Assembly (NCBI GenBank): GCA_963205185.1
Contig: CAUJHZ010000044.1
Location: forward strand, 87,640-151,639
Length of the DNA stretch: 64,000 nt
Origin: Planctomycetota bacterium
Lineage (GTDB): Bacteria > Planctomycetota > Phycisphaerae > Phycisphaerales > UBA5793
Reading direction: 5' to 3'
Shown: in pieces, positions 5,160 to 64,000 of the stretch
Position numbering within the stretch: position 1 is the first letter of the stretch
Layout of the letters: each line of letters begins with the position of its first letter
The notes under the pieces: model-generated
What the model was told of the DNA's origin: nothing
The model's input: only the letters and a program-made list of their open reading frames with translations
The model's database searches: none
Translations under genes and position numbers: made by a program

Positions 5160-6894
<1,735 letters not shown>

Positions 6895-14218: not shown

Positions 14219-14278
14219 CCGGTTTCGTGCCTCCCTGGACTGGAATACGACGCCGCCCTGTGCGTCTGATCTACTGAC

Positions 14279-16501: not shown

Positions 16502-16565
16502 TTCTGGCGGGTCCACGGCCTCTGTGGGCGGCGTCGGCGGCGGTGGGCTCCTATATTTCTGGTCC

Positions 16566-16832
16566 ATGGCCAAGAAGCTCCCCAAGTCGCTGGCAATCCT
16601 CGATGAAGACCTCTGCACAGGCTGCGAGGCATGCGTCTCGGTGTGCCCGGTGGACTGCATCGACACCTTGCCGGGTCCGCAGTTCCAGTCGGTCATGCAG
16701 GCGTGCCACATCGACCTGCCGCGCTGCATCGGCTGCACGCTGTGCGCCCAGGTCTGCCCGTGGGATGTGATCACCATGGTGCCGACCGATCAGGTCGTGC
16801 AGGTCGAGAAGTACGCAGCGCAGTTGTCTTGA
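16566..16832 (+). CDS. 2[4Fe-4S] ferredoxin
   Basis: 88 residues with two cluster motifs: C17-C20-C23-C27 (CTGCEACVSVCPVDC) and C54-C57-C60-C64 (CIGCTLCAQVCPWDV). A small soluble electron carrier; the extra Cys at 31 and 47 are not part of the canonical sets. The start at 16566 is the first ATG giving a normal-length ferredoxin. A TATATT box lies ~15 bases upstream, which would leave a very short leader. No redox partner is adjacent. Confidence 0.9.
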   Translation: MAKKLPKSLAILDEDLCTGCEACVSVCPVDCIDTLPGPQFQSVMQACHIDLPRCIGCTLCAQVCPWDVITMVPTDQVVQVEKYAAQLS

Positions 16833-16981
16833 TGCGGGCGCTCCGATACCGTTGGCGGGTCTGCGCCGCGATCAGATCGTCCTAGAAAACCAGGCCGCAC
16901 GGCGCGGCGATGGAATGTAACGATCAAATCGCGCGAATCGGCTGAACCAATCGCAACGACCCTGCCGATAGGTATTGCACC
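16833..16981. other. Short gene-free stretch between ferredoxin and amidase
   Basis: 149 bases with no coding signal. GATAGGTATTGCACC just before the amidase GTG may hold its promoter or leader; nothing definite was seen. Confidence 0.3.
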
Positions 16982-17695
16982 GTGAATCCAGAGTCGACAC
17001 GTCGGATGTTCCTGCTCGCGGGACTTGGCTTCCTTGCAGGTTGCGCCACCACGCGGAGATCAACTTCGCTGCCCGACGTGCCGTGGTCCTACGGCCGGGC
17101 GCCGGGCTCGGGTCTGCCTCCCCGCAACGACTATCCCGTGCTCGAACCGACGGCGCCGGGTCCGGTCCAGTCGCCGCCTTCGCAGACTTTCGGCGGCCTC
17201 ATCCCGCGCAGCGGCTGGGCGACGGGCTCGCCGATTCCCACGCGGATGGACCCGCTCACGGGCGTGCATCGCATCACGCTGCATCACGACGGCATGACGC
17301 CGTTCAGTTCAACGAGCCAGGGCGACGCCGCGGCTCGCATCGATTCCATTCGCCGGGCGCATCAGGCGCAGGGTTGGGGCGACGTGGGCTACCACTTCAT
17401 CGTCGATCCCGCCGGCCGGGTGTGGGAAGGCCGCTTGCTGCAGTTCCAGGGCGCACACGTCAAGGACAAGAACCCGGGCAACATCGGCATCGTGTGCCTG
17501 GGCAACTTCGAGCGCCAGAGCCCGACTTCGGCTCAGATCGATGCGCTGCGCGAGTTCGTCTGCCGCGTCCAGTCGGCATACCGCATTCCCAACTCCCGGG
17601 TGCAGACGCATCGCGAACTGGCGCCGACGCTGTGCCCCGGTGGGGCGATGCAGGCGCGGATCGCGCAATTGCGCCAGGTCGGCGCGTTCGCCTGA
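16982..17695 (+). CDS. N-acetylmuramoyl-L-alanine amidase, PGRP-type lipoprotein
   Basis: 237 residues, GTG start. The leader MFLLAGLGFLAGC ends in a lipobox. After a Pro-rich linker comes a type 2 amidase domain: ITLHHDGM supplies the first zinc His, GYHFIVDPAGRVWEGR is the core signature, GNIGIVCLGNF follows, and THRELAPTLCPG supplies the last His and Cys. It would cut the bond between muramic acid and the stem peptide in cell-wall recycling or remodelling. Single gene, convergent with the LON-domain gene. Confidence 0.85.
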   Translation: MNPESTRRMFLLAGLGFLAGCATTRRSTSLPDVPWSYGRAPGSGLPPRNDYPVLEPTAPGPVQSPPSQTFGGLIPRSGWATGSPIPTRMDPLTGVHRITLHHDGMTPFSSTSQGDAAARIDSIRRAHQAQGWGDVGYHFIVDPAGRVWEGRLLQFQGAHVKDKNPGNIGIVCLGNFERQSPTSAQIDALREFVCRVQSAYRIPNSRVQTHRELAPTLCPGGAMQARIAQLRQVGAFA

Positions 17696-17728
17696 TCTTG
17701 CTGCCGGCTGTTCAAATCACCAGTTGAT

Positions 17729-18439
17729 TCAGTTCCAGCTGCAGCCCTTGGGCCAGTCGGTGGTCTGATGCTGCACGTCGGCCAGCAGCCGCTCGAGCCC
17801 GCGCAGTTGCGATTCGGTGTACTCCGCCCGCTCGATGGTGTCCGGCTCGGCCAGCAGGCGGTAGCGCCGTTCGGCGTCTTCGGCGGTGGTCATGAGCAGA
17901 TGGCCGACGATCTCGATGAGCACGTGCGAGGGAATGTCGTCGCGTTCGAACCACTTGAGCACATCGGCGCCCAGACGCATGCTGGACAGGGGGTCGCCCT
18001 GGAGCAGTTCGCGCACGCGATGGCGCCAGCCGACCAGTTCGGCCTCGTGATCTTCGGGATTGGCGTCGAGCGGCGCGAGGCGGGCGATCCGGTACGGCCG
18101 GCCTTCGTCGGGCATCTCTTCCTGCACGACCGTGGCGCGGCAGATGCCCTGCAGCATGATGTTGTAACGCCCCATCGGAAGCCGCTCGTACTTCTCGATC
18201 TGGCCGAGGCACACGACGGGCCGGATGGGGGGGTTGCCGTGGTATTCCTGCTGCCAGCGGTTGCCCTGGAACGTGGCCATCGCAATCTGGCTCGAGCCGT
18301 CGAGCGCTTCGCTGACCATCTGGATGTAGCGCGGCTCGAAAATATGCAGCGGAATGGTCGCGTGCGGCAGCAGGCAGATGCCCGCAAGCGGGAAGAGCGG
18401 AAAGCGACGGCTGAAGTTGATCTGGATCATCTCCGGCAT
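17729..18439 (-). CDS. LON substrate-binding domain protein
   Basis: 236 residues from the ATG at 18439. The opening FPLFPLAGICLLPHATIPLHIFEPRY is the hallmark of the N-terminal domain of Lon protease; no ATPase or protease domain follows, so this is a stand-alone LON-domain protein, a known bacterial class of unknown precise function. The rest (GRATV/LVGWRHRVREL...) is helical as expected. It lies 125 bases downstream of the PDZ/ECF operon on the same strand and may be a separate transcript. Confidence 0.8.
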   Translation of the reverse strand: MPEMIQINFSRRFPLFPLAGICLLPHATIPLHIFEPRYIQMVSEALDGSSQIAMATFQGNRWQQEYHGNPPIRPVVCLGQIEKYERLPMGRYNIMLQGICRATVVQEEMPDEGRPYRIARLAPLDANPEDHEAELVGWRHRVRELLQGDPLSSMRLGADVLKWFERDDIPSHVLIEIVGHLLMTTAEDAERRYRLLAEPDTIERAEYTESQLRGLERLLADVQHQTTDWPKGCSWN

Positions 18440-18564
18440 CGCCCGATTGTACGCCGCTGTCCGGCCGCCCTGACAGCGATCGGACGCCGGAAAAAGCCAC
18501 GATGCCCGACGAGGCAATGCGCCGCCGGACATCGTGGGCGAAGGAATGAAAGGAGGCTGATTGA

Positions 18565-19650
18565 TCAGGCGTCGGGCTGGGGCGACTCCTGCACCTGCTT
18601 GCGGATTTCGGTCTGCTGCTGCTGGAGCTGCTCGAGCATCTCGCGCATGCGCTGCATCTGCTCATCCATCTGCCGCATCATCTCTTCCATGTCGGGCGCA
18701 GCCTGGCGGAGCATCTTTTCCGTGTCCAGCTGGAAGCGGCGAATCTGCGGCTCAGTAAGCTGGAACGAGCGGATCTGCGGCAGTGATTCGATCTCGATCT
18801 GCCTGTTGATCGTCTCAGGCGTCAGAAGCTGCAGCATGTGGTCGCCGCCGGTGGTCAGGCCGAACTGATCCGCCTTCCACTCGGCAAGTGCTGCCTTGAT
18901 CTTCTTCTTGTCACCGCGGCGCATGATCGTCATCGAAACGTTGGTCTCGGGCTCCGCGGCAGCGATTGCCTTGCGGAGTTCGTCGGCCGAGACGGTATCG
19001 AAGGATGCGTCGCCGACGGTCGCGCTGACGATGATGTCCCCGTCCTGGAGGCCCGCCTTGGCGGCCGGTGAGTCTTCGATGACGCTCTCGACGCGCACGC
19101 CGGCGTCGCCTTCGAGGCCGAGGTAGTCGCGCAAGTCGCGGCTGATCGGCGCGAGGTGGACGCCGAGCATGGACTTGGGTTGCGTCCAGAGGCCGAAGTT
19201 GCCGCCTGCGAACGCATCTCCCAGGTTCTTGAGCTGCTCGGCATCAACCTGCAAGTTCGTCGCCCCCTGGCCGTCAACTTTGAACAGTTGCATGCGGCCG
19301 GGTTCAAAGTCATCCGCGTCGAAGACCTGGATATCGAGGTCTTTGAGCGCTTCGCGCAGTTCATCCATGTCATCGACTTCGATCTGCTGGCCGTTGACCC
19401 AGAGTTGAATCTGGTCTTCGCCATCCACGACCTTTCGCTCGATGCGGACGTCCTGCTTCTCGCCGTCGGGCGGCGCATTGGTCGTCACGACGCGGGTCAC
19501 TTTGCTGGTGGAGGGTCGAACGATGACCGTTTCCGTCGAGTCGCCTCTCTGCACCGCGACCTGGGCCCGGGCGGAGGAGCCGGCGAACAAAAGCGACGCA
19601 CTTGCACAAAAAAGGGCGGCAACACGGGGACTGGCTTGCATGGGATCCAT
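18565..19650 (-). CDS. Exported PDZ-domain protein, distal gene of second ECF operon
   Basis: 361 residues with a signal peptide ending SSARAQ. Residues ~159-253 form a PDZ domain (MLGVHLAPISRDLRDYLG, SPAAKAGLQDGDIIV). The N-terminal part has an acidic beta region, and the last ~60 residues are a Gln/Met-rich coiled coil (MRQMDEQMQRMREMLEQLQQQQ). No protease domain. PDZ domains bind protein C-termini; together with the neighbouring PDZ gene and the anti-sigma gene this hints at regulated proteolysis or envelope sensing, which is inference. Confidence 0.8.
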   Translation of the reverse strand: MDPMQASPRVAALFCASASLLFAGSSARAQVAVQRGDSTETVIVRPSTSKVTRVVTTNAPPDGEKQDVRIERKVVDGEDQIQLWVNGQQIEVDDMDELREALKDLDIQVFDADDFEPGRMQLFKVDGQGATNLQVDAEQLKNLGDAFAGGNFGLWTQPKSMLGVHLAPISRDLRDYLGLEGDAGVRVESVIEDSPAAKAGLQDGDIIVSATVGDASFDTVSADELRKAIAAAEPETNVSMTIMRRGDKKKIKAALAEWKADQFGLTTGGDHMLQLLTPETINRQIEIESLPQIRSFQLTEPQIRRFQLDTEKMLRQAAPDMEEMMRQMDEQMQRMREMLEQLQQQQTEIRKQVQESPQPDA

Positions 19651-50939: not shown

Positions 50940-51345
50940 TGGGAAGGCCGGTGATCGGCGAAGACCCTTCCTTACGGTCGGGGCTCGGATCTGCGCGGCG
51001 CTTGCGATCGGAACCGAGCCCCACGCGTAAGCACGGGGTTTGGAGCTGCGGGAGCGCAAAAGCCGGTGACGGCGAGGACCGGTGATCGGCGAAGACCCTT
51101 CCTTACGGTCGGGGCTCGGATCACTACGGCGCGGCGATCGGAACCGAGCCCCACGCGTAAGCACGGGTGTTGGACCTGCGGGAGCGCAAAAGCCGAAGAC
51201 CCTCCCTTACGGTCGGGGCTCGGATCTGCGCGGCGCGGTGTTCGGAACCGAGCCCCACGCGTAAGCACGGGTGTTGGAGCTGCGGGGGCGCAAAAGCCGG
51301 TGATCGGTGAAGACCCTCCCTTACGGTCGGGGCTCGGATCGAGCA
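50940..51345. repeat. Palindromic repeat block 3, densest part
   Basis: R1 at 50971-50988, 51102-51119, 51206-51223 and 51320-51337; R2 at 51014-51031, 51144-51161 and 51248-51265. The period is 104-131 bases. The last R1 runs into the coding end of the beta-propeller gene and contains its stop codon. Confidence 0.85.
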
Positions 51346-53132
51346 GGTTGTTCGCTGTCGCTGGGCAACCCCACCGCAAACACGTGATGCCGGGCGCGGA
51401 AGTAGATGATCCCATCGGAGATGGCTGGCGTAGCCATGCAGGTTTCGCCGAGGTCGCTGGCGGCGATCTTCTCCCATTCGCGGCCGGCGCGAACGACCTG
51501 CACGGCGCCCTGTTCGCTGGTGTAGTAGATCTTGCCATCGCCCGCGACGGCCGAGGCGGTGAATCCCGAGCGGCCATCGCCGACCCGTTCGCGAAAGATC
51601 ATTTCGCCGCTGATGGCGTCGAAGCACGAGACGATGCCGGCGTCGGTGCAGAGGTAGACGAGATCGCCGTACGCCAGCGGCGTCTGCATGTACGCGCCGC
51701 GGCGGGCATAGGCCCAAGCCATGTGCTGGTTGGCGGTGCCGTCTGGCGGCATCTTGAGTTCACCTTTCGCGGAGGCGCGGATGGCGTAGATCGGCGCCAT
51801 GCGGCCGTGCGCGTTGGTGATGTAGATCAGATCGTGCGCGACGACGGGCGTGGGCACGGGGATGTCGCCGCCGCCCACGAGCGACCAGAGTTGCTCGCCA
51901 GTGCTGATGTCGTAGCCGGCGATGACCTTCCAGCCGTTGCAGATCACCTGCGTGCGATCGGGCCCGACGTGCACGGTCGGCGTGGACCACGTGGGCACTT
52001 CATCGCGCGGCGTGCGCCAGAGTTCATCGCCGGTGTCAACATTGAGCGCCGCGAGGAATGACTCGCCCTGCACATCGCACTGAACGAGCACTTTATCTTC
52101 GAAGATGACCGGCGAACTCGCGAAACCCCACTGGGCATCGGGCACCATGTAATAACCCGAGTCGAGCGTGCCCAGGTTCTTCGACCAGAGCAGTTCGCCC
52201 TGCGGGTCGTAGCAGTAGAGCCCTTCGCTGCCAAAGAAGGCAACGACGTGCTTGGCATCCGCGGCGGGCGTCGAGGCGGCATGGCTGCCCTTGGGATGGC
52301 GCTTGATGGCGGGCACACCTTCCCACGCGGTGCGCTGCCATTCGATCTGGCCGGTTTTGCGATCGAGGCAGATCACTTTGAACTGAAACGTCGAATCATC
52401 CTGCACCGGCTGGATGTCGCCATACAGGCCGACGCGCAGTTCCTCTTCGCCCTCCTTGACGGCGGTGGTGAGATAGAGGCGATCGCCGACGATGACGGGG
52501 CTGGAGTGCGCGAGGCCGTCGATGGGCGTCTTCCAGAGGATGTTCTCGCCCGTCTCGACGTTGAACGAATCCGGCAGCGGTTTGCTGTCGTCGTAGCCGC
52601 GTGCGAACGCGCCACGGAAGGAGGGCCAGTCGCCGGCAGATTGTTCTTTCTCGGGCCGCTTGATCTGGCCGAACATCTGCCCGCCGTGGTCGCCGGCGCT
52701 CCACGTGCCGGCATATTCGCCGCGGTAGACGAGCACGCGCGCGGTGAACGTGCCCATGCCGGGAATGGCGAAGTCGGTCAGGGTGATGACGGGCGTGTCG
52801 CCGGCCCACTTGACCAGCAGCACGAGGGGAACGGTGACATCCTTCTGCCCGTACTGGATGCGGGCTTCAAAGCTCCACATGTCGCCGTCGATCTTTTTCA
52901 CTTCGCCCAGGGTGTACTTGTCTTTGCTCAGCGGCTGGTCGTCGGGCTGACCGGTGCGCGTGAAGTAGCCGACGAGTTGAGCGCCGGACATGGTTTGCGC
53001 GAATCTCGCTTCCAATTCCGCCTGGCGGGCTGTTTCGGCGCCGGCATCCGGTTCGGACTGGGCCAGCGTTGTCCGGCCGGCGAGGGCAAGAACGAGCGCG
53101 AAGCACGAGATCAGGCGCATGAAAGTGAGCAT
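51321..53132 (-). CDS. Exported PQQ-like beta-propeller protein
   Basis: 603 residues from the ATG at 53132 (GGAG six bases upstream). Signal peptide to ~TTLAQ. An extra N-terminal domain (~residues 25-150) is followed by WPSFRG, the usual opening of planctomycete PQQ-like propellers, and blade repeats such as CLDRKTGQIEWQR, CYDPQGELLWSKNLG, ALNVDTGDELWRTP, GYDISTGEQLWSL, CFDAISGEMIFRE. Enzymatic cofactor residues are not evident; many such proteins are structural or ligand-binding. The last residues SEPRP come from the palindromic repeat. Confidence 0.85.
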   Translation of the reverse strand: MLTFMRLISCFALVLALAGRTTLAQSEPDAGAETARQAELEARFAQTMSGAQLVGYFTRTGQPDDQPLSKDKYTLGEVKKIDGDMWSFEARIQYGQKDVTVPLVLLVKWAGDTPVITLTDFAIPGMGTFTARVLVYRGEYAGTWSAGDHGGQMFGQIKRPEKEQSAGDWPSFRGAFARGYDDSKPLPDSFNVETGENILWKTPIDGLAHSSPVIVGDRLYLTTAVKEGEEELRVGLYGDIQPVQDDSTFQFKVICLDRKTGQIEWQRTAWEGVPAIKRHPKGSHAASTPAADAKHVVAFFGSEGLYCYDPQGELLWSKNLGTLDSGYYMVPDAQWGFASSPVIFEDKVLVQCDVQGESFLAALNVDTGDELWRTPRDEVPTWSTPTVHVGPDRTQVICNGWKVIAGYDISTGEQLWSLVGGGDIPVPTPVVAHDLIYITNAHGRMAPIYAIRASAKGELKMPPDGTANQHMAWAYARRGAYMQTPLAYGDLVYLCTDAGIVSCFDAISGEMIFRERVGDGRSGFTASAVAGDGKIYYTSEQGAVQVVRAGREWEKIAASDLGETCMATPAISDGIIYFRARHHVFAVGLPSDSEQPARSEPRP

Positions 53133-53160
53133 GTGAATCTCCATCCGTTTGATCGGCGGC

Positions 53161-54465
53161 TCAAGGCTGCGCGTCGGTCTCAGCGCTCTGGCTGCCGATG
53201 CAGTAGAGCCGGTCGGCCGTGCGAATGAGCAGCTGATTGTTGTCGATGACGATGTTCGAGCGGCAGGGGTACGAGTCGAGTTCGCTGGTGGCGATGACCT
53301 TGTACGCATCGCCCGCTTCGAGTACGACGCAGAAGCCCTCGGCGTCGATGAGGTAGATCTTGTCATCGCCCGCCGTGGCCGAGGCGCGGATGAACGTGTG
53401 CGTGTCGAGTTCGCTTTCCCAGAGGCGCTCGCCGGTGGCGGGCTGGAGGCAGACCATCTTGCGGCGGCGCTTGCCGTCGCTCACATAGAGCCGGTCCTTG
53501 TAGAGCAGCGGCGTCATCACATCGGGCGTCGGCCGGTCGAGCGTCCACACCTCGGTCACTTCATCGCCCTTGACCAGCAGCGCGTGCAATGCGTTGTTCT
53601 GCGGCTCGGTTACATAGATGAAGCCATCGCTTCCCACCAATGTGTTGGTGATGGCGCGGTAGTTGCGCGCCTGGCGCGGATTGAGCCCCGACCAGCGCCA
53701 CAACTCTTTGCCGGTGGCGGGGTCGTGCGAAGTGAGGCAGTCAGCGCCCAGGATGAGAATCTCGCGGCGATCGCCGTTCACAAACGGCACGGGCGAGGTG
53801 TACGCCTGCTCGGATTCACTGCGCGCCTCGTCTTCGCGGATGTGGCGCCAGATCGTCTCGCCCGTCTTCGGTTCGACGGCGAGCACGTACGACTCGCCGG
53901 TGCGAATGACCTGCACGAACAGCCGGCCGCCCCAGAGCAGCGGGCTCGACGCGTAGCCCCAGTCCATTTTCAACTCGCCGAACTCGGCGGCGAGGTCGCG
54001 GGCCCACAACTCATTGCCGTCGAAGTCGTACCCGGCGAGGCGGCCGTTGCCGAACATGAAGCACGCGACGCCGAGGCCCGAATCGGCCGCGGGCGAGCAC
54101 TCGGCGAACATATTCTCGTAGCCGCGCTGGCGCGACTCGCGGCCGGGGCCGTTGGGCCGCTGCCAGAGCACCTTGCCGCTCTGGCGATCGACGGCGATGG
54201 CCAGGAGCATGGAGTCTTCGGCTGAGAATGCGGTGAGGAAGATGCGATCGCCCGCGACGCTGGGCGTGGCGGCGCCAGGCCCAGGCAGCGGCGTCGCCCA
54301 GACGACGTTTTCCGTGGTGCTCCACGAGGTCGGCAAGTTGGCGGCGTCCGCGGACCCGTTGAAGCAGGGGCCGCGCCACTGCGACCACTGCTCGAGCACC
54401 TGGGCGTGCAGCGGCGAAGTGCAAAGCGCGAGAACAACAGGCAGGAGCGCGGCGATGCGATTCAT
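53161..54465 (-). CDS. Exported PQQ-like beta-propeller protein
   Basis: 434 residues from the ATG at 54465 (TTGGAG upstream). Signal peptide to ~PLHAQ. QWRGPCFNGSADAANLPTSWS opens the propeller; blades include AVDRQSGKVLWQRP, GYDFDGNELWARDL, AVEPKTGETIWRH, SHDPATGKELWRWSG, CLQPATGERLWE. A shorter relative of the next gene, 28 bases downstream and likely co-transcribed; it lacks that gene's extra N-terminal domain. Role unknown. Confidence 0.85.
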   Translation of the reverse strand: MNRIAALLPVVLALCTSPLHAQVLEQWSQWRGPCFNGSADAANLPTSWSTTENVVWATPLPGPGAATPSVAGDRIFLTAFSAEDSMLLAIAVDRQSGKVLWQRPNGPGRESRQRGYENMFAECSPAADSGLGVACFMFGNGRLAGYDFDGNELWARDLAAEFGELKMDWGYASSPLLWGGRLFVQVIRTGESYVLAVEPKTGETIWRHIREDEARSESEQAYTSPVPFVNGDRREILILGADCLTSHDPATGKELWRWSGLNPRQARNYRAITNTLVGSDGFIYVTEPQNNALHALLVKGDEVTEVWTLDRPTPDVMTPLLYKDRLYVSDGKRRRKMVCLQPATGERLWESELDTHTFIRASATAGDDKIYLIDAEGFCVVLEAGDAYKVIATSELDSYPCRSNIVIDNNQLLIRTADRLYCIGSQSAETDAQP

Positions 54466-54555
54466 GTCTTGCTCCAAGGGTGTGCCGGCCGGGAACGATA
54501 GCACTCGTTCGTGTTTACCGGTTGTCCGATCACCGGTTCTGCGAGGCTCGAGCGA

Positions 54556-57500
54556 CTACTCGCGGCGGAGTGAGTCCATGAGCCGGCCGCACGTGGCCCA
54601 GTGAGTTGCCAGCACTACTGAAAGGGCGCCTGAGGCGGCGATGAGCACGACGATGGCCAGGGTGATGCCGATCGACGCCGACGAAGCGGATTGGGCCATC
54701 GCCGGCCACACCGCGGGCACGGCTGCAATCACCCCGACGCCCAGGCCCAGCGCCAGCAGCGCTGCGTGTTCGATGAGCAGCAGGCGACGCACATCGCGCG
54801 GCACGAAGCCGACGGCGGCCAGCAGCGCCAGTTCGCCGCGACGCTCGCTCACGTTTCGCACGAGCACCATGCCCAGCCCGGCGGTTCCGACAAGCACGCC
54901 CAGCCCGCCAAGCACTTGGAACACCGCCATGTAGGTGTTCTGCACGGCGCTGAACTCCGCCAGGCGCTGCGCCGTCGGCGTAACCTGAAGCCCGATGTCG
55001 GCGAAGGCCCGCATGAGCGCCTCGCTGACCGCGTCGGCCTTGTCCGCCGGGCAGTCGATGAGCAGCATGCGGTGACCGGCCTCAGAAGGGAATGCGCGTT
55101 CGAAGTCGGCTTCACTGATGACCAGGTTGCCTTGCAGGATCGAGTTGGCCAGCGAGGCGACGAGTTGCAGTTTGACCGTCTCACCCTGCGCGTTCTGGTA
55201 GGCGATCACATCGCCCAGCGAACGGTGCATGGCCCACATCATCGAAGCCTGATCGACGATTGCGGGGATGACACCCGGCTCGCTGACGCGCGCTGCGAGC
55301 AGAGACCACGGGCTTGGGTTCGGCGTATCGTGCAGCGTGGAAGCGAAGGCGAACGCATCGCGCTGCGCGAGAAGGTCGGGATTGACGCCGAGCACGCGCG
55401 GCTGCTGGGCGCGGTTGAGATTCAGGCAACTCGCCTCATCGCCGGCGCGGATGCGCAGCGGCACGAATGAGACATCGCCGAAGAGTTCGGCATCGAGGTT
55501 TGCCGCCTGCCGCGCTTCGGGCGTGTTCAGGTCCGCGAGCAGGGGGATGGAGGACTGACCCATGAGAGCGAAGCCGCCCGTGCCCGAGTGCCGCGACGTG
55601 GGATCGGGCATGGGCAGGCGGTTCAGGCCGACGGCGACGACGAGAAAGCAGCCGCACGCGAGAAGCGCGATGGCCGCGGTGGAGCGCCCCGGCCGCCGGG
55701 CGGCGCTGCGCAGCGCGAGCAGGCGGGTATTGAGGCGGGCGTCATCAGTTTGCGTGACGAGATGGGTCAGAATCCATCGGGATGCGAGAATGCCGGCGAT
55801 GAGCAGCAGCGTGCCGGAAGTGAAGAACGCGGCGATGGCGGCGCCCTGATCGCCAACCACTCCCCACCCAATGCAGCCGAGCCCTGCAATAAGACACGTC
55901 ATCGCTGCAGTGGGAAGGAGCCAGCGGCTGCGTGTCGCCATGGATGCAGCGCGCTCGGCCGCATCACCCGAAAGCAGCTGCACCGCATGCTGCTTGAGAA
56001 GTCGCCGGGCAGCGAGATGCATGGCGATCATCGCGGCGACGAACGAGATGACCGCGCCCATTGCGAGAGTCGTCCACGTGATGTGAAGTTCCAGTGTCGC
56101 GGAAGCCACAGCGCCGCTCCAGATTCCTTCCAGAGCCGCGAGCAGAGCGCGGCTGTAGGCGATGGCCAGCAGCGCACCGACAACGGAGCCGGTTGCGGCG
56201 ACGAGAACCGCCTCGCGCAGCAGCCAGCTGCGCACCATCCAGTCGCTCCATCCGACGGCGAGCAGCGTTCCCATCTGCCGGCGGCGCTGATCGACCGTGA
56301 ACGCAAAGAGCATTGCGGTGAGCAGCAGGGCCGAGGCGATCAGAAACAGACTCAGGCCGATGAAGAGCCCGCCGAAGTCGGTCGTGGGATTGGCCGCGGC
56401 GAGCGCGGCTTCGCGGATGGGATCGAACGTGAGGCCGAAATCCGCAGGACTCAACTGAGCGAGCAGCGCGGCCGCTTCGAGACCATCGGGCCCGGTCGCG
56501 GGAGTGCGGATCGCGGTGAGGCTGCCAAAGCGATTGCTCCACAGTGCGCGGGCCGCGGCAAGGCTGATGAACGCCTTGGGCGCGGAGCGATGCTCATCCC
56601 AGTACTGTTCGTCCTTGTCGCGGATGCGGTCCAGGTCGATCGGCACGCCGGGGTTCCAGTCGCGGCAGTCGGCGCTGTCGGTCAGGCCGGGGATGTCGGG
56701 CATGAGATCCGGGTCGGCCGCGGGGCCGGCTGGTTCGATGATGGCGCGCACCTTGAAACCTGCTGAGGCTTCGCGCAGAGTTCGCCCTGCGGTCAGTTCG
56801 AAATATCGCACCTCAAGTCGGTCGCCGACCGACGCAGCCAGATCATCCGCGAGCCACTGCGTGATGACGATCTCGTCGGCGGCGAGATCCGCGGGGATGA
56901 TGGGCTGCCAGGCCTCGGGCAGCGTGCCGCCTTCATTAAGCGGGCCGATCCCGGTGATCGTCGAGTAAGGTGTGGAGCGATCGTGGCGGCGGACTTCGTT
57001 CACAAAATACGTGAGCAGGCCGGTTGCCTGCGGTTCGAGGCGGGCGGCGGCGTGAACCACTTCTCCGTCGAGGAACACGCGGCTGGTGCGCCACTCGATG
57101 GAGCCGTCGGTTGGACTGGGACGCGGCGCGAGCGAGAGATCATCGATGCTCCAGTTGCCGGCCACGGCGGCGGCGAGTTGCTCGGCGGCGGGTTGCGGTT
57201 CGCCGCTGCGCTGCAACAGAAGATTCGCGCGCCCGCTTTGGCCCGCCTGTTCACCAAGCCAGGCCAGCGGTACGAATGCGTTGAGCGGCGGCGCCTGGTT
57301 GGCTGCGAGGCTGAAGCGGCCGAACTGATGGTCATTCACCACGCCCGCCACGTCGACGCGAAGCGCCAGCACGGCGTCGTCGGTCGTGGCAAAGGTCAGA
57401 TCGCGCGAGAGGGCGCTGGGTTTGTTCACGCGGAGGATGATGGCGTCGCCGGCGTCCGCGCTCAGTTGCGCCGCCAAAGGCACGTTGAGCCAGACCTGGC

Positions 57501-57891
57501 CCGGCTGGAGATCGATGGCCGCCGGGCTGGGCGCCATGTCAAAGAACCGCTCATCGACTCCCAGCACCGCGACGTCGAGCGCCCGCCGGCTGCGATCGGC
57601 CGTTGCGGCGACGCCCTGCAGCTGAAGCACGGGCGCGATCGAAGTCTGGGGCAGCGCAGCGGAGATGGCGTCGGCCAGATCGGCGCGGATGAGCCGATCG
57701 CCTGTGATCATCGCCCGATCCACCGACCCGATGCGAAGGTGCGCCTGCTGGCGCAGCGTGAAGCGCACCGAGTCGCCGATGATGAGCGAGCCGACGAGCG
57801 CCATCGCGGCCAATGCGGCTCCAAGCAGCGCTGCCAGCAGCGACCGGCGGTCGTAGACGATGCTGCGCCACACCAGTCGCCAGCGGGTCAT
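54556..57891 (-). CDS. ABC transporter permease, double FtsX type
   Basis: 1111 residues from the ATG at 57891, overlapping the ATPase stop (ATGA). N-terminal helix (SLLAALLGAALAAMALVGSLIIGDS), a ~480-residue periplasmic part, a first FtsX module of three helices (~from SLFLIASALLLTAMLFAF), two or three more helices, a second periplasmic part with Cys-containing CLNLNRAQQPR, and a last FtsX module (TYMAVFQVLGGLGVLVGTAGLGMVL to the end). One ten-helix chain, so it can pair with itself or act as a full exporter of the MacB/LolCE class. Substrate unknown. Confidence 0.85.
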   Translation of the reverse strand: MTRWRLVWRSIVYDRRSLLAALLGAALAAMALVGSLIIGDSVRFTLRQQAHLRIGSVDRAMITGDRLIRADLADAISAALPQTSIAPVLQLQGVAATADRSRRALDVAVLGVDERFFDMAPSPAAIDLQPGQVWLNVPLAAQLSADAGDAIILRVNKPSALSRDLTFATTDDAVLALRVDVAGVVNDHQFGRFSLAANQAPPLNAFVPLAWLGEQAGQSGRANLLLQRSGEPQPAAEQLAAAVAGNWSIDDLSLAPRPSPTDGSIEWRTSRVFLDGEVVHAAARLEPQATGLLTYFVNEVRRHDRSTPYSTITGIGPLNEGGTLPEAWQPIIPADLAADEIVITQWLADDLAASVGDRLEVRYFELTAGRTLREASAGFKVRAIIEPAGPAADPDLMPDIPGLTDSADCRDWNPGVPIDLDRIRDKDEQYWDEHRSAPKAFISLAAARALWSNRFGSLTAIRTPATGPDGLEAAALLAQLSPADFGLTFDPIREAALAAANPTTDFGGLFIGLSLFLIASALLLTAMLFAFTVDQRRRQMGTLLAVGWSDWMVRSWLLREAVLVAATGSVVGALLAIAYSRALLAALEGIWSGAVASATLELHITWTTLAMGAVISFVAAMIAMHLAARRLLKQHAVQLLSGDAAERAASMATRSRWLLPTAAMTCLIAGLGCIGWGVVGDQGAAIAAFFTSGTLLLIAGILASRWILTHLVTQTDDARLNTRLLALRSAARRPGRSTAAIALLACGCFLVVAVGLNRLPMPDPTSRHSGTGGFALMGQSSIPLLADLNTPEARQAANLDAELFGDVSFVPLRIRAGDEASCLNLNRAQQPRVLGVNPDLLAQRDAFAFASTLHDTPNPSPWSLLAARVSEPGVIPAIVDQASMMWAMHRSLGDVIAYQNAQGETVKLQLVASLANSILQGNLVISEADFERAFPSEAGHRMLLIDCPADKADAVSEALMRAFADIGLQVTPTAQRLAEFSAVQNTYMAVFQVLGGLGVLVGTAGLGMVLVRNVSERRGELALLAAVGFVPRDVRRLLLIEHAALLALGLGVGVIAAVPAVWPAMAQSASSASIGITLAIVVLIAASGALSVVLATHWATCGRLMDSLRRE

Positions 57892-58601
57892 GGCGCCGTC
57901 GCCCCGCGGTCCGCCAGGGCGCCCGAATGCAGTTCGAGCAGCCGATCGAGTTGTTCGGCGAGTGGGCGGGCGTGGGTCACCGCGACGAACGCGACCTGCC
58001 GCTGGCGACACATTCGAACCAGCATGGACCAGACGTCCTGCGCCGTGTCGCCATCGAGCGAACCCGTAGGTTCATCGGCAAGAACGACATCCGGTTCATT
58101 GATGAGCGCCCGCACGACGGCAATGCGCTGACACTCGCCGCCGGACAACTGGCCGGGCAGATGGTGCAGCCTCTCGCCGAGGCCGACGTCCGCGAGTAAC
58201 TGCTGCGCCCGCTGGTTGGCAGCGGAGTCCCGCGCCGCGTTGCCTCGGGCCAGCGTCGGGATGAGAACATTCTCGATTGCCGTGCACTGGGGAAGGAGAT
58301 GGTGCATCTGAAAGATGAAACCGAGCCGGTCGCGCCGGAATGCGGCGCTGTCGCGCGGCGAGAAATCGTCGATGCGCTGCCCGCCGCACCAGATCTCGCC
58401 GGAGGTGGGGGCGTCCAGGGCGCCGAGAATGTTGAGCAGTGTGCTCTTGCCGCAGCCGGAAGGGCCGACGACCGCGAGAGACTGCCCGCGATCGACCTGC
58501 AGCGAGACGTCGGCCAGCACGGTCAGCGGCTGGGCGCCTGCCGGCCCGGGGTATTGCTTGGTCACATGGATCGCCCGCAACAGCGGCTGGCTCTCATTCA
58601 C
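57888..58601 (-). CDS. ABC transporter ATP-binding protein, LolD/MacB type
   Basis: 237 residues. Walker A GPSGCGKST (46-54), Q-loop FIFQMHHLLPQCTAIENV, signature LSGGECQRIAVVRAL, Walker B VVLADEPTGSLDGD, switch His in VAVTHARPLAEQ. All catalytic residues are intact. Forms a mechanotransmission or export complex with the permease encoded next (four-base overlap). It begins 57 bases after the flavoprotein gene of the aromatic cluster, on the same strand, so it may export that product; this is inference. Confidence 0.9.
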   Translation of the reverse strand: MNESQPLLRAIHVTKQYPGPAGAQPLTVLADVSLQVDRGQSLAVVGPSGCGKSTLLNILGALDAPTSGEIWCGGQRIDDFSPRDSAAFRRDRLGFIFQMHHLLPQCTAIENVLIPTLARGNAARDSAANQRAQQLLADVGLGERLHHLPGQLSGGECQRIAVVRALINEPDVVLADEPTGSLDGDTAQDVWSMLVRMCRQRQVAFVAVTHARPLAEQLDRLLELHSGALADRGATAP

Positions 58602-58658: not shown

Positions 58659-59951
58659 TCATGCCCGGCCCGCTCCACTGGCCTGCGCCGTCAGCGGTCG
58701 GCCGTGCGGCAGCGGCGCCGGGATGTCGGCGAATTCTGAGGCGGCGTCGAACAGCGGATTGAGGTCCTTTTCGACATTGCCGATGAGGCAATCCGTCAGA
58801 TCGCTGCGGAACTCTGGATGCGCCTTGAGGAATGCGCCGAAACTGAAGTCGGTGTCGTAGAAGGCGTAGACGAGCCGGCGCATGGCCTCGATGGCGCTGC
58901 GGAACTTTTCGCCGTACGCCGCGAAGCGGGCCGCGGAGACATCGCCCGCCGCGAGCGATTCGTGCACGGCATCGCCCGCGAGCACGCCGGTGTAAAGCGC
59001 GAGGAAGACGCCCGAAGAGAAGACCGGGTCGAGGAAGCCGAACGCATCGCCGGCCAGCAGCAGGCCGTCGGCAGCGCAGTACTTCGACCGATACGAGTAA
59101 TCGCCGGTGACGCGGTATTCGCCGACTTGGGTGGCGCCGGCCAGATGCTCGGCGATCCACGGCTGGATCTGTGCTTCGCGCTCGAACATCGCCTTGGGGT
59201 CGAGTGCCGGCTCGCGGTAGAGGTAGTCGCGCTCGCACACGATGCCGACGCTGACCTTGTCATCCGGCAGCGGAATATACCAGAACCAGCCCTTGTCGGG
59301 GAGGTACGCGACGGTTGTGGCGCCTTCGTCGATGCCTGCGTCGCGCTTGGCGCCCTTGTAATAGGTCCAGAGGGCGATCTTGCGCAGCTGGGGATCATCC
59401 ACGCGCCAGCCGCGCTCTCTGATGGCCAGGCAGTCGCGGCCGCTGGCGTCGATGGTCATGGGCGCGCGAAACTCGATGGTTTGCCCTCGTTCATCGACCG
59501 CCGCAACGCCGACGGTGCTCTCGCCGTCGCGTAGAAGTTGTCGTGCGCTGAACCCGAAGCGAATCTCGGCGCCTCTGGCCTTTGCGTTTTCCACGAGCAG
59601 CTGGTCGAAGGCGCTGCGCACGACTTGCCAGGTTCGCGCGCAATCGTGTTTGGTGTGGGAGGCGAAGTAGAAGGGAGTGGTCTGCTTGCCATCAAGGCCG
59701 ACGAACTGAACACTGTGCTTCTGGATCGTGCATGCCGCCGCGTCGATGCGCTCGATCATGCCGAGCCGATGGAGCGGGAACCAGCAGTAGGGGATGAGCG
59801 ACTCGCCGATCCGATAGCGCGGGAAGGGCTGTCGCTCGAGCATGATCACGCGTCGGCCATGCCCCGCGAGGATAGCCGCGGCCGAGGAGCCCGCGGGCCC
59901 CGCGCCGATGATGACGGCATCGCACTCCACTACCTGCGTCTGTGCGCTCAT
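58659..59951 (-). CDS. FAD-dependent oxidoreductase with halogenase-like WxWxIP motif
   Basis: 430 residues. FAD site GAGPAG (16-21), ERQPFPRYRIGESLIP, the second flavin motif LLLAGDAFGFLDPVFSSGVFLAL. WFWYIP (residues 222-227, bases 59271-59288) matches the WxWxIP signature of flavin-dependent halogenases and separates it from most monooxygenases. Such proteins also occur in aryl-polyene and flexirubin-type clusters, sometimes as oxidases without halogenation. The catalytic Lys of tryptophan halogenases cannot be placed with certainty by eye. Overlaps the upstream gene by four bases. Confidence 0.8.
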   Translation of the reverse strand: MSAQTQVVECDAVIIGAGPAGSSAAAILAGHGRRVIMLERQPFPRYRIGESLIPYCWFPLHRLGMIERIDAAACTIQKHSVQFVGLDGKQTTPFYFASHTKHDCARTWQVVRSAFDQLLVENAKARGAEIRFGFSARQLLRDGESTVGVAAVDERGQTIEFRAPMTIDASGRDCLAIRERGWRVDDPQLRKIALWTYYKGAKRDAGIDEGATTVAYLPDKGWFWYIPLPDDKVSVGIVCERDYLYREPALDPKAMFEREAQIQPWIAEHLAGATQVGEYRVTGDYSYRSKYCAADGLLLAGDAFGFLDPVFSSGVFLALYTGVLAGDAVHESLAAGDVSAARFAAYGEKFRSAIEAMRRLVYAFYDTDFSFGAFLKAHPEFRSDLTDCLIGNVEKDLNPLFDAASEFADIPAPLPHGRPLTAQASGAGRA

Positions 59952-60517
59952 TCCTGGTGAGCCTCACTGAGTGGAGGCAGAATTTCGACGACTTCCGCCA
60001 GCGTCTGATCGCTCTGATCGTGGATCAACGTGTGGCGGCCATAGAGCATGGTTGGTCCGACAAGTTGAAACGCAACTCGCGTGGCCGGGTCGCTGAGAAA
60101 CCGGAAGAACGCGGACGGGCGGCAGGAGTGATCCACGCCGCAGTCGTGCAGGATGCCGCCCAACGGCTGGCGGCAGTCCACGATGCGGTGCACGGCGTCG
60201 CGCTCGAAGCGGCCCAGGTTGATGCGGATCGCTCCGTACTCCACGGGGCGCTGGCTCGATGCGCCGACGAGCACGACTTGCCGCCGCAGCCACTGGCCAT
60301 CGCGCCGAACTTCGAGCAGTCGCAGCGCGACCGGCTCGCCGAAGTGGTCCTGGAGCGTGCTGGTCATGTCGCGGTCGTGCACGAGCAGATCGCGATAGGG
60401 CGGCGGGAGCTCGCCGGCGTTCATTGCTTCAACCTGGGGCAGGGCGTCGCCGCGGTCCGCGTAGAACTCTTCGAGCGGAAACATGAGATCGGCGATGCGG
60501 TGCACAAGTGGCGTCAT
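59948..60517 (-). CDS. Chorismate-lyase-like protein
   Basis: 189 residues. LLVHDRDMTSTLQDHFGEPVALRLLE, QVVLVGASSQRPVEYGAIRINLGRF and RQPLGGIL are the sequence blocks of the UbiC/chorismate-lyase fold, which splits chorismate into pyruvate and 4-hydroxybenzoate. Located between an acyl/aryl-CoA ligase gene and a flavoprotein gene it would supply the hydroxybenzoate starter. No ubiquinone genes are near. Catalytic Glu at the end of the fold was not located with confidence. Confidence 0.75.
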   Translation of the reverse strand: MTPLVHRIADLMFPLEEFYADRGDALPQVEAMNAGELPPPYRDLLVHDRDMTSTLQDHFGEPVALRLLEVRRDGQWLRRQVVLVGASSQRPVEYGAIRINLGRFERDAVHRIVDCRQPLGGILHDCGVDHSCRPSAFFRFLSDPATRVAFQLVGPTMLYGRHTLIHDQSDQTLAEVVEILPPLSEAHQE

Positions 60518-60640
60518 GAGCGCGGCGTCCTCTGCGGCCCCGCAAAAGGCGGTGGATGGTAGGAGACCGGGCGCGGTGCTGCTGCCGGCGATCCGGTCGA
60601 ACCGGTTCTATCGGCGGGCGGCCGCGCGGTTGCGATAGCG

Positions 60641-61942
60641 TCACTGCCCCAGGCGAACCCAGCGGCGCGCCTTGAGTTCGAAACGAGGCAACTCACCCGC
60701 GCCTGCCGCGCGTACGGGCACGCGCAGGTTCCATGCGTCGCGGATGGCCTGCTCGACGCGCCGGCAAAGCGCGGCGGAGTCGGCGACCTCGGCCGCCGGC
60801 TCGATGGTCAGAGTCAGTTCAGTCATTCCCGCACGCTGCCCGATTTCGGCGCGGTATTCGACCACTTCCGTAAACGGCCCGAGCAACGCATCGAGCGCGC
60901 TGGGGTAGAGATTGGTGCCGCGAACGACGACCATGTCATCCACGCGGCCGATGATGCCACCGATGAGGCGCATCGTGTGGCGACCGCAGGCGCACGCACC
61001 GCCCGTCTCGCACTGGACGATGTCGCCGGTGCGATAGCGCAGCACGGGAGAATCCTCGCGGCCGAGCGTGGTGATGACGAGTTCACCTGTGGCGCCGTCT
61101 TCTGCAGGAAGCGGCTCGCCCGTCGCCGGGTCGATGATTTCGCAGAGGTAGCGACCCTCATCCACGTGCAGCACGCATGGTCGGCGCGGGCACTCGAACG
61201 TGACCGGCCCGACTTCGGTCATCCCGTGGTGATCGAAGACGCGCGCGGTCGGCCAGAGTTGTTCGATGCGGCTGCGCACGGCCGGGACGCTGCCGCCGGG
61301 CTCGCCGGCGACGATGATCAGGCGGACCTTAGCGAGGCTGAGATCGACGCCCTGCTCCCGAGCCGATTCGCCCAGACGAATGGCGTACGTGGGCGTGCAG
61401 AGCAGGACCTTGACCTCGTTGGCGATGATGGCGCGCACGCGCGTGGCCGTGTTCATCGCCCCTCCCGAAATGCACCGGCACGCCATATCCAGCGCGGCGT
61501 CCCACGCCATCCAGAATCCGATGAACGGGCCGAACGAGAACGCGAAAAACAGGCAGTCGCCATCATCGACTCCCGCGACACCCAGCAGCGTATGCCAGCC
61601 GGCAACAAGCCAGTCCCAGTTGTCTTCGGTATCGAGCCAGCGCAGCGGATTGCCGGTGGTCGAACTCGTCTGGTGAACGCGCACGTAGTGATTGATTGAT
61701 GTCGAAAGATTGGTGCCGTAGGGAGGATGCGCTTCCTGGTCCACGGCCAGATCCGCCTTGGTCAGCAGCGGCAGCCGGGCCGCAAAGGCGTCGAGCGACT
61801 CGATGGTTTCATCGACCCCTGCGGCTCGCAGTCGCTGCCGCCAGAAGGGGTTGTCGTTTTTGACCTTCTCAATAAGGCCGCACAGCAAGTCCAGTTGCTG
61901 GTCGCGCAGTGACTCTCGACTGAAGAAGAGACGTTCACCCAT
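60641..61942 (-). CDS. PaaK-like CoA ligase (adenylate-forming)
   Basis: 433 residues, length of the phenylacetate-CoA ligase family. RVHQTSSTTGNPLRW is the P-loop-like AMP motif, YGTNLSTSI and FDHHGMTEVGPV follow, then RYRTGDIVQCETGGACACGRH (with the family's Cys pair) and GRVDDMVVVRGTNLYP. It would activate an aromatic acid as acyl-adenylate and hand it to CoA or to a carrier protein. Next to a chorismate-lyase-like gene the likely substrate is hydroxybenzoate (inference). 123 bases separate it from that gene, possibly an internal promoter. Confidence 0.85.
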   Translation of the reverse strand: MGERLFFSRESLRDQQLDLLCGLIEKVKNDNPFWRQRLRAAGVDETIESLDAFAARLPLLTKADLAVDQEAHPPYGTNLSTSINHYVRVHQTSSTTGNPLRWLDTEDNWDWLVAGWHTLLGVAGVDDGDCLFFAFSFGPFIGFWMAWDAALDMACRCISGGAMNTATRVRAIIANEVKVLLCTPTYAIRLGESAREQGVDLSLAKVRLIIVAGEPGGSVPAVRSRIEQLWPTARVFDHHGMTEVGPVTFECPRRPCVLHVDEGRYLCEIIDPATGEPLPAEDGATGELVITTLGREDSPVLRYRTGDIVQCETGGACACGRHTMRLIGGIIGRVDDMVVVRGTNLYPSALDALLGPFTEVVEYRAEIGQRAGMTELTLTIEPAAEVADSAALCRRVEQAIRDAWNLRVPVRAAGAGELPRFELKARRWVRLGQ

Positions 61943-61951
61943 GACTGAAAC

Positions 61952-62503
61952 TCAGTGGTCGGCTGACGGGGCTGGCGCGCTTGCCGGTGGAGGGTGCGAC
62001 ACGGCGCCCGGCGGGGGCTTGTAGAGCGTTACGAGCATGCCGCCCCCGGCCGCCATGAGTATGCCCAGAAAGAATGGCCAGCGGATGGCGCCGACGCCGC
62101 CGGCGGGTGGGTGCATCCAGATGGCGACGACCGCATTCACGATCGGCGCCCCGGCGAAGATGATCGACATGACCACTGCCGGATTCCCTTTGGCGCCGAA
62201 TGCCAGCAGCACGCAGAAGGCGCCCACGGCGCCGACGACGCCCGCGAGCAGTGACCACATGATCCCTTTGGCCGGCATGGACCAGCTCGAGCCTGCGGCG
62301 AGCAGCATCCCCGCAGGCGCGAGCACCGCGATGAGAAAGTACGCGATGCCAACCCACAGGAACGCCTTGTAGCGGCCGTTGGATGCGTCGGCCATGTTCA
62401 ACTGACCGCTGTGCAGGAAGATGCCGTACACGCCCCAGCACGCCACCGTCATCAGCGCAAAGGTGATCCACGCAGAGCCGGGCGAAGACGTCGTTTCGGG
62501 CAT
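61952..62503 (-). CDS. Small multi-pass transporter, EamA/DMT-like
   Basis: 183 residues with five hydrophobic helices (WITFALMTVACWGVYGIF, FLWVGIAYFLIAVLAPAGMLL, GIMWSLLAGVVGAVGAFCVLLAFG, VVMSIIFAGAPIVNAVVAIWM, FFLGILMAAGGGMLVTLY) and a Pro-rich tail. Looks like one half of a drug/metabolite transporter, which commonly has ten helices; it may dimerise. Sits nine bases upstream of the ligase gene and two bases after the thioesterase stop, so it belongs to the operon. Confidence 0.65.
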   Translation of the reverse strand: MPETTSSPGSAWITFALMTVACWGVYGIFLHSGQLNMADASNGRYKAFLWVGIAYFLIAVLAPAGMLLAAGSSWSMPAKGIMWSLLAGVVGAVGAFCVLLAFGAKGNPAVVMSIIFAGAPIVNAVVAIWMHPPAGGVGAIRWPFFLGILMAAGGGMLVTLYKPPPGAVSHPPPASAPAPSADH

Positions 62504-62505
62504 GT

Positions 62506-62976
62506 TCAGAATCCTTCCTGGCCGACGAGTTCGGCCGGCGCGGCGTCGATCAGGCGCACAAAGGCCTCGGGCATGCTGGCGGCGCGCATTCGGCCGTCGG
62601 GCGTGTGATTTGTCGCGTAGAGCGCGGTGACTACGCCGCGCGCGGTGACGGGCATGCCCTCGAGCGTGCCGTCCGTATTCACCTTGCGAAAGACAAAGCC
62701 GTAGGTGATCGCCTTGTCGGTCTTGCGCAGGACGAGCAGGTGCACTTCGACCGTGTCCTGAAAGCGAACGGGCGCGAAATAGCGGCAGGACACTTCGACG
62801 CGCGGCCAGCCGGCCATGCGGTGGCCATCCTGTTCGTGGACGGTTTCACCCAGCGAACGGATGAACGCGTGTTCGACCGCCTCCATGAAGCGGAAGTAGT
62901 TGGCGAAGTGCATGATGCCGGCAGTGTCGGTGTCTGCAAATTCGACCAGTCGCCGGGCTCGGAACTCGTAGTGCAT
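62506..62976 (-). CDS. Hotdog-fold acyl-CoA thioesterase (4HBT type)
   Basis: 156 residues from the ATG at 62976; a GTG at 62991 directly after the upstream stop is a possible earlier start. RRLVEFADTDTAGIMHFANYFRFMEAVEHAFIRSLG holds the catalytic Asp and the HxxY/F helix of the 4-hydroxybenzoyl-CoA thioesterase family; VSCRYFAPVRFQDTVEV follows. It releases acyl groups from CoA or carrier protein. Fits a pathway that makes aryl thioesters. Operon gene. Confidence 0.85.
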   Translation of the reverse strand: MHYEFRARRLVEFADTDTAGIMHFANYFRFMEAVEHAFIRSLGETVHEQDGHRMAGWPRVEVSCRYFAPVRFQDTVEVHLLVLRKTDKAITYGFVFRKVNTDGTLEGMPVTARGVVTALYATNHTPDGRMRAASMPEAFVRLIDAAPAELVGQEGF

Positions 62977-62991
62977 CGTCGTCGGTCCCAC

Positions 62992-64000
62992 TCAGGCGGG
63001 AAGAGGATCGGCAGCCGCTGCGGCCGGTGCTGAAGTGAGCATGATACACATCTGCTCGACCTCGCGGGCCATGCGGTCGGCAGTGAATCGGTCGCGGACG
63101 CTGGCGCAACCCGCGGCTCCCAGGGCGCGTGCACGGTCGGGATCACTCAGCAGCAGGGCGATCGCCTCTGCGAGGGACGGCGCATCGTCGGGTGCGCACA
63201 GCACGCCGCCTCCGGTCGCTTCGAGCAGTTCAGGAAAGGAAGCATGCTTCGGCTGCACGACGGGCACGCCGCATGCGAGTGCTTCGAGCACATACAGACC
63301 GAACGATTCGCCGTAAGTGGCGGGCACCGAGAGCACATCGAGGCTGCTGAGGAGATCGATCTTGGCCGGGCGCTCGATGTTGGGAAGGATCTCGACGTCG
63401 TCCAGCACGGCGGCGGCCCGCAGTTTCTGCCGCTGTTGCTGCACGAACGGCCGATCGCCCTTGAGCATGGCGCCCGCCACGCGGAGCCGCGCGCCGGCGA
63501 ACTCCGGCTGCTTCTTGAGCAGGATGAACGCATCGCACAGCGTGTGCAGGCCCTTATCTGCACAGAGGCGCGCGAGATAGCCGATGGTCGGCCGCCGATC
63601 GCGAGGGCTGGAGTCGGGCCGGGGTAGATCCTCGAGTTCGATGCCGTTGTGGATCACCTGCACGCGGTCGGGGCGCAGCGCGAGGCGATCGGTCATCAGA
63701 TCGCCGTAGTAGCGGCTCACGGCGATGAAGCGGCGCACGCCCTGCACCTGGTCGCGCACGAGCCGCCACGCCTGGGCTCGGTGGGAGAGGGGCAGTGAAT
63801 CGAGAAACGGCGCTTCGCCCTGCAAGGTGCAGACAATGGGGCAACGCACCTGCTCTGTCAGCGGCTCGACGAGTCCGCACAACATCGCATTGGACAGCAG
63901 GATGACATCGGGCTGCGGCTCGGCGCGGAGCCAGCTGATGAGATGATCGACTTCCGCGGCCTGGCGGCCGCGCCGGCCGCGCAGGGTGGAAAGGGTGAGA
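62992..64000 (-). CDS. Family 4-like glycosyltransferase (5' partial)
   Basis: The frame is open to the right edge, so the first part of the gene is outside; 335 codons are visible. CTLQGEAPFLDSL lies in the acceptor domain, then VSRYYGDLMTDRL, IGYLARLCADKGLHTLCDAF and the donor-binding YGESFGLYVLEALACGVPVVQPKHASFPEL with the E-x7-E motif of retaining GT-B enzymes. It would move a sugar from a nucleotide sugar to the pathway product or to a lipid. First visible gene of the operon. Confidence 0.85.
   Translation of the reverse strand, partial: LTLSTLRGRRGRQAAEVDHLISWLRAEPQPDVILLSNAMLCGLVEPLTEQVRCPIVCTLQGEAPFLDSLPLSHRAQAWRLVRDQVQGVRRFIAVSRYYGDLMTDRLALRPDRVQVIHNGIELEDLPRPDSSPRDRRPTIGYLARLCADKGLHTLCDAFILLKKQPEFAGARLRVAGAMLKGDRPFVQQQRQKLRAAAVLDDVEILPNIERPAKIDLLSSLDVLSVPATYGESFGLYVLEALACGVPVVQPKHASFPELLEATGGGVLCAPDDAPSLAEAIALLLSDPDRARALGAAGCASVRDRFTADRMAREVEQMCIMLTSAPAAAAADPLPA

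Follow-up and report, generated by a model that had tools for sequence, protein, structure and literature searches.

What do the genes at the right-hand end of a 64,000-nucleotide stretch of planctomycete DNA make together? The stretch, hereafter the window, covers positions 87,640 to 151,639 of contig CAUJHZ010000044.1 (C44:87640-151639) in the 4.55-Mb genome of a Planctomycetota bacterium (GCA_963205185.1); window positions are used for all operon coordinates. The original prediction placed the edge of a chorismate-derived aromatic biosynthetic cluster at 58659-64000. Our analysis suggests, with a probability of about one half, that these genes belong to an operon, conserved in planctomycetes, that makes a small aromatic metabolite from chorismate by reducing an acid to the aldehyde or alcohol and modifying it further. 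Five enzymes recur in it: a chorismate-lyase-superfamily protein (CL), an EhpF-like adenosine monophosphate (AMP)-binding ligase, an aldehyde dehydrogenase (ALDH), a halogenase-type flavin adenine dinucleotide (FAD) enzyme (HAL) and a HemN-like radical S-adenosylmethionine (SAM) enzyme (rSAM).

The five enzymes are nearly always found together. CL is encoded in 65 of the 392 genomes of our phylum sample, and in the 55 CL-positive genomes tested the ligase (55/55), HAL (55/55), radical SAM enzyme (55/55) and ALDH (55/55) were always present. Among 22 genomes from the same order that lack CL, no ALDH and one strong radical SAM homologue (G035, 642 bits) were found, together with weak homologues of the ligase in one genome (G026, 148 bits) and of HAL in another (G034, 215 bits). 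In the family f32, CL occurs in 97 of 101 genomes, or 82 of the 83 of high quality. Several f32 genomes (G083, G161 and G337) have the genes dispersed widely over the chromosome; this scattering with retained co-occurrence argues against mere linkage. That the set is kept where scattered argues for a conserved function and not for a sporadic secondary metabolite.

The gene order of the window is repeated in relatives at 35-97% protein identity. Because the same order recurs in relatives, the arrangement is far beyond chance. CL is present in 13 of 60 relatives (one extra short match, in G047, looks spurious), and in 10 of the 13 the block is largely intact, with small rearrangements: PQQd-PQQc-SSS-ligase-ALDH-FeADH-PQQb-rSAM-CL-HAL-GT4-4HBT-membrane protein-PaaK-ABC-FtsX, where PQQ denotes propeller genes of the pyrroloquinoline quinone type, SSS a sodium/solute symporter and FeADH an iron-type alcohol dehydrogenase. 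The position of CL-HAL in the block varies: in some relatives it directly follows rSAM, and in others, like the window, it follows PaaK. G002 and G029 have a shorter stretch of the block, and G004 has CL-HAL-ABC-FtsX alone at that place. The order is preserved across Phycisphaerales families, and comparable clusters were observed in further families, with a compact version in G163 (ligase-ALDH-FeADH-rSAM-CL-HAL plus a symporter). A scan for CL in wider genome contigs gave one true relative; a match in Lachnospiraceae lay over an unrelated long open reading frame and was rejected as spurious.

The six genes at 58659-64320 are the downstream part of an operon of about 27 kb. Their open reading frames, all on the minus strand from 58659 to past 64000, lie 0, 2, 9 and 123 bases apart, with a single overlap of 4 bases, in agreement with the tight packing described earlier, including the ABC ATPase gene 57 bases downstream. 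Pfam and NCBIfam also confirmed the GT4, 4HBT, AMP-binding/PaaK, Trp_halogenase, ABC and FtsX assignments. The features of the window part are as follows.

62992-64320, minus strand: GT4 glycosyltransferase (L002:5632-6960), completed past 64000; Glycos_transf_1 and Glyco_transf_4; kept in the relatives' block
62506-62991, minus strand: hotdog thioesterase, 4HBT/YbgC-like; Pfam 4HBT and 4HBT_2, under equivalog cutoffs; kept in relatives
61952-62503, minus strand: small hydrophobic membrane protein; relatives share 46-89% identity
60641-61942, minus strand: PaaK-like AMP-dependent ligase; AMP-binding and AMP-binding_C_2, PaaK/FlxY-like, under equivalog cutoffs; candidate activator of an aromatic acid or derivative
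59948-60517, minus strand: CL; profile match to UbiC, weaker to 2nwi/DUF98
58659-59951, minus strand: HAL; Trp_halogenase; 4-base overlap with CL
57888-58601, minus strand: LolD/MacB-type ABC ATPase; ABC_tran, LolD-like, under equivalog cutoff; 57 bases after HAL
54556-57891, minus strand: FtsX-family permease; FtsX and MacB_PCD; after the ATPase gene in relatives
53161-54504, minus strand: PQQ-type beta-propeller protein; PQQ_2; similar gene at the same place in G001 and G004

The permease start at 57891 is probable, and gives a 4-base overlap with the ATPase gene; whether the propeller gene at 53161-54504 belongs to the operon is uncertain. The gene at 61952-62503 had been called a small transporter: a membrane protein is indeed encoded there, but family scans, including Pfam and NCBIfam, gave no match that would confirm a transporter.

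The contig extends 28.5 kb past 64000 and agrees base for base with the window where they overlap. Upstream of the GT4 start at 64320, it adds the following features.

from 64335, minus strand: rSAM, HemN-like
from 65689, minus strand: PQQ-propeller protein with a lipoprotein-like signal
66910 to ~68064, minus strand: iron-type alcohol dehydrogenase (Fe-ADH)
68084 to ~69.5 kb, minus strand: ALDH
69505-70584, minus strand: AMP-binding ligase, EhpF-like
from 70581, minus strand: SSS sodium/solute symporter, followed by a small DUF3311-like gene (by inspection)
72481-76336, minus strand: PQQ propellers
76383-78650, minus strand: TonB receptor (by inspection)
to 82478, minus strand: further PQQ propellers

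The small gene between the symporter and PQQ genes was suspected to encode a carrier protein; inspection pointed to a membrane protein resembling DUF3311 symporter partners. PQQ-type propeller genes both surround and interrupt the operon (window 51321-54504 and 65689-82478; L002, L003), and three kinds are order-conserved in relatives.

This upstream sequence bears directly on the pathway class first proposed, an aryl-polyene, flexirubin or xanthomonadin-like pigment cluster. The enzyme types in common are the PaaK/FlxY-like ligase (134 bits to FlxY, under the cutoff), the thioesterase, the halogenase-like flavoprotein and the glycosyltransferase. However, the 28 kb from 64000 to the contig end contain no ketosynthase, ketoreductase, dehydratase or carrier protein, and neither does the block conserved among relatives. 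A whole-genome PF00109 search gave six places, of which those on C46 and C27 were read: the two adjacent ketosynthase genes on C46 are FabF-like, and the neighbours in both regions are unrelated and not aryl-polyene-like. The aryl-polyene reading is thus largely refuted, and we consider a pigment cluster of this kind highly improbable. Nor did ordinary housekeeping genes appear beyond 64000; an order-conserved set predicted to reduce aromatic carboxylates lies there. The earlier view of the six genes as lying at the edge of a bigger planctomycete operon, apparently a biosynthetic one, with CL beside a halogenase-type flavoprotein, is supported.

The assignment of CL rests on comparison of profiles. 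The chorismate-lyase-like call held at the profile level (UbiC and 2nwi), but a single-sequence Pfam search with the window CL alone gave no match. With hhalign, CL matched UbiC over 118 columns with a probability of 85.3% (P 6e-6), whereas 20 column-shuffled controls reached at best 15.6% and P 0.0017; the profile match to 2nwi/DUF98 has an E of 0.0046. Within a 14-member CL family, M51, R79, P118-L119-G120 and E178 are invariant, and the alignment pairs the LLxHxxxMTxTxE segment with the UbiC segment LLLEDSMTKRFE. We take the UbiC active-site residues to be R76, R91 and E155; R79 and E178 of CL are invariant, and the last UbiC segment falls outside the hhalign block. An AlphaFold2 model of CL built from two sequences had a predicted local distance difference test (pLDDT) value of 37, too low for the model to be of use. 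By profile-level similarity over the domain, CL is assigned as a predicted member of the chorismate lyase superfamily.

CL homologues at 34-37% identity are encoded on Azospirillum plasmids. One of them, annotated as a hypothetical protein (L133:13980-17546, with equivalents in L134 and L135), adjoins short-chain dehydrogenase/reductase (SDR), pabB and aminotransferase-IV genes. This neighbourhood is a chorismate-using one, and aminobenzoate would fit it too. CL might thus act on aminodeoxychorismate or a related compound, with the product joined to a pterin- or folate-like cofactor; apart from the Azospirillum neighbours, the Streptomyces goshikiensis ligase-ALDH pair lies near pabB, and the substrate of GriC/GriD is an amino-hydroxybenzoate (PMC10179220). 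However, no pabB or aminotransferase gene was seen in the planctomycete clusters, and a pterin is not suggested by the halogenase-type and glycosyltransferase genes. We regard this aminobenzoate route as rather unlikely.

The best PDB matches of HAL are mostly deposited halogenases. In all 20 HAL homologues (20/20, f32 included), Lys78, WFW[YF]IP and FxDPxxSSG are kept, and so are the GxGxxG, WxWxIP and FxxPxxSxG motifs and the catalytic Lys, which we take to define FADH2-dependent halogenases. With the CmlS equivalog model, HAL scored 199 of 900 bits, far under the cutoff; it additionally scores with the geranylgeranyl reductase and MenJ models. Halogenating activity is predicted, and a motif-bearing enzyme that is not a halogenase would also be possible. 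In G068 (G068:C3:350933-353020) the CL and HAL domains lie within one uninterrupted open frame, which is likely a natural fusion.

In a few genomes the set has other neighbours. In G351 (L102 = G351:C1:737000-756999, 4504-13255), ThiF, UbiA-family and MqnC/CofH-type radical SAM genes follow PQQb-rSAM-CL-HAL on the same strand, and a link to quinone synthesis is possible there. In G412 (L087 = G412:C1:1457000-1476999, 11220-18971; L089 is alike), the interval from rSAM to CL holds GcvH-like, ferredoxin-like, radical SAM, squalene-cyclase-like and DUF116-polyprenyl synthetase genes.

Alternatively, the set could make a redox cofactor or a quinone-like molecule instead of an exported halogenated metabolite, with HAL serving as a hydroxylase or reductase and the product being used by the respiratory chain or by PQQ-propeller proteins. 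The near-universal presence of CL in f32, which suggests a core function, would suit this. The genes after the set in G351, the polyprenyl synthetase and squalene-cyclase-like genes amid it in G412 and G403, and the reductase-type scores of HAL point the same way. However, prenylation-gene neighbours occur in few genomes and in none of the Phycisphaerales compared, HAL keeps all halogenase motifs including the lysine, and the solved structures closest to it are those of halogenases. We consider such a product possible but doubtful.

Like HAL, rSAM keeps its characteristic residues: the CX3CX2C cysteines C85, C89 and C92 are invariant. The protein is of HemN-like length and matched HemN (1olt) over positions 32-434 with 195 bits. 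HemN proper, coproporphyrinogen III dehydrogenase, was rejected, as the TIGR00538 score of 191 bits falls short of the 325-bit cutoff. The protein is assigned as a predicted HemN-type (class C) radical SAM enzyme. The 642-bit homologue in G035 (G035:C79:2534-3835) is HemN-like and stands in a genome without the other four families.

The ligase profile had EhpF as its sole PDB match (211 bits, E 3e-61). Annotated plasmid homologues of the ligase, which carry names such as arylcarboxylate reductase and phenazine biosynthesis protein, share 33-34% identity and the YGNT and C-terminal GVY motifs. The ALDH gene overlaps or comes after the ligase gene, and C346 of ALDH is invariant; an ALDH gene likewise adjoins the ligase gene in Halalkalicoccus, Streptomyces goshikiensis, Burkholderia ubonensis and Halomarina (unannotated). 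In the Halalkalicoccus plasmid, from a haloarchaeon, a sodium:solute symporter, an EhpF-like ligase and an ALDH stand in a row (L126:7511-11569), the order of the window operon. Enzymes of the ehp operon carry phenazine-1,6-dicarboxylate towards griseoluteic acid, which is a phenazine with a 6-hydroxymethyl group (PMC3175449), and EhpG is an ALDH-family protein whose gene lies beside that of EhpF (PMC11278526). Similarly, 3-amino-4-hydroxybenzoate (3,4-AHBA) is adenylated by GriC and then reduced to the aldehyde by GriD (PMC10179220). Our ligase and ALDH resemble such a two-component arylcarboxylate reductase, and ATP-dependent reduction is predicted.

The same genes could also be read in the oxidative direction: the TonB receptor, PQQ propellers and symporter would import an aromatic alcohol, Fe-ADH and ALDH would oxidise it to the acid, and PaaK would form the coenzyme A (CoA) ester. 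The transport and oxidoreductase genes of the operon, and the symporter that likewise precedes the Halalkalicoccus pair, are consistent with this. However, the presence of CL speaks for a pathway that builds the aromatic from chorismate, the set is accompanied by no genes for ring cleavage or a CoA pathway, and there are reductive precedents for pairing an EhpF-type ligase with an ALDH (PMC10179220). Of the compared clusters, moreover, just those of G000, G001, G003 and G032 include the TonB receptor. Uptake and breakdown is thus improbable.

We return to the biosynthetic route. Each chemical step, halogenation included, and the product are predicted by homology, whereas the gene content, order, conservation, co-occurrence, family assignments and motif retention described above were observed. 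CL would convert chorismate to a hydroxybenzoate. The EhpF/GriC-type ligase would adenylate the carboxylate and the adjacent EhpG/GriD-type ALDH would reduce it to the aldehyde, the two acting as a two-component carboxylic acid reductase; Fe-ADH would then turn the (hydroxybenz)aldehyde into the (hydroxy)benzyl alcohol. HAL would halogenate the ring, hydroxylation being less likely, and the HemN-like rSAM would modify the compound further, with C-methylation or decarboxylation the likeliest reactions. The PaaK-type ligase, the hotdog thioesterase, GT4 and the LolD/FtsX-type ABC system may activate, glycosylate and export the product in Phycisphaerae and certain other families. More tentatively, Planctomycetota may have a hitherto unrecognised core pathway, present almost throughout at least one large family, which would lead from chorismate via the two-component carboxylic acid reductase to a new class of reduced, halogenated, rSAM-modified hydroxybenzyl compound, or to a cofactor.

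Several points weigh against the biosynthetic route. Because the residue aligned with R91 of UbiC is Ala or Ile, CL may act on a substrate other than chorismate. The ALDH shares 24-27% identity with EhpG-type partners. The closest solved relatives of HAL presumably include enzymes that need carrier-bound substrates, and the operon encodes no carrier protein. The route does not fix a single position for PaaK, the thioesterase or GT4. All 22 CL-negative genomes come from one order, and the contrast with the CL-positive genomes is not independent of phylogeny. Finally, near-universality in a large family would be unusual for a halogenated secondary metabolite, and a core function fits at least equally well.

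In the literature searched, which omits most subscription journals, we found no described planctomycete cluster of this kind and no pathway explaining the five enzymes, in line with the earlier statement that the combination is undescribed. The compact five-enzyme set gives assayable candidates, the CL-HAL fusion and the arylcarboxylate reductase pair. Planctomycetes have few known natural products. A 2025 review lists five, whether single compounds or compound classes; every one comes from the class Planctomycetia, and halogenated phenolics are among them (PMC12078418). Among the halo-aromatics are 3,5-dibromo-p-anisic acid and alichondrichlorin, which consists of 4-hydroxybenzoate and a chlorinated fatty chain and whose genes are reported as unknown (PMC12078418). 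Compared by compound description, this halogenated phenolic acid and 4-hydroxybenzoate derivative recall the proposed product and serve as leads only.

Compared to the UbiC/DUF98 chorismate lyases, CL is alike in its profile-level match, the MT-x-x-x-E segment, the PLG motif and the C-terminal Glu; it differs in that the window protein has no Pfam match, the UbiC R91 position is unconserved and no ubiquinone genes are its neighbours. HAL resembles CmlS/CndH/PltA-type FADH2-dependent halogenases in sequence, the lysine, WxWxIP and FxxPxxSxG; different from them, it has no carrier protein in its operon and stays far from the CmlS cutoff. The CL-HAL pair may be likened, by description only, to Bmp5/Bmp6, which we take to be a flavin halogenase and chorismate lyase pair. 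The LuxC/LuxE fatty acid reductase also combines a ligase with an ALDH-type reductase to make an aldehyde; however, the planctomycete pair has no LuxE/LuxC Pfam match and a strong EhpF match. LuxE, the acyl-protein synthetase, has an acyl-accepting cysteine. Because the ligase family alignment has no invariant cysteine, a LuxE-type acyl-enzyme is unlikely, and a long-chain aldehyde reading was dropped. The closest parallels are GriC/GriD (grixazone, Streptomyces griseus), likened by published description and not by sequence, and EhpF/EhpG (D-alanylgriseoluteic acid, Pantoea/Enterobacter agglomerans). In both, as in the planctomycete operon, an EhpF-family ligase stands beside an ALDH-family reductase, and their known substrates are aromatic acids; unlike them, the planctomycete pair is accompanied by CL, Fe-ADH, the HemN-like rSAM and HAL in place of phenazine or 3,4-AHBA genes.

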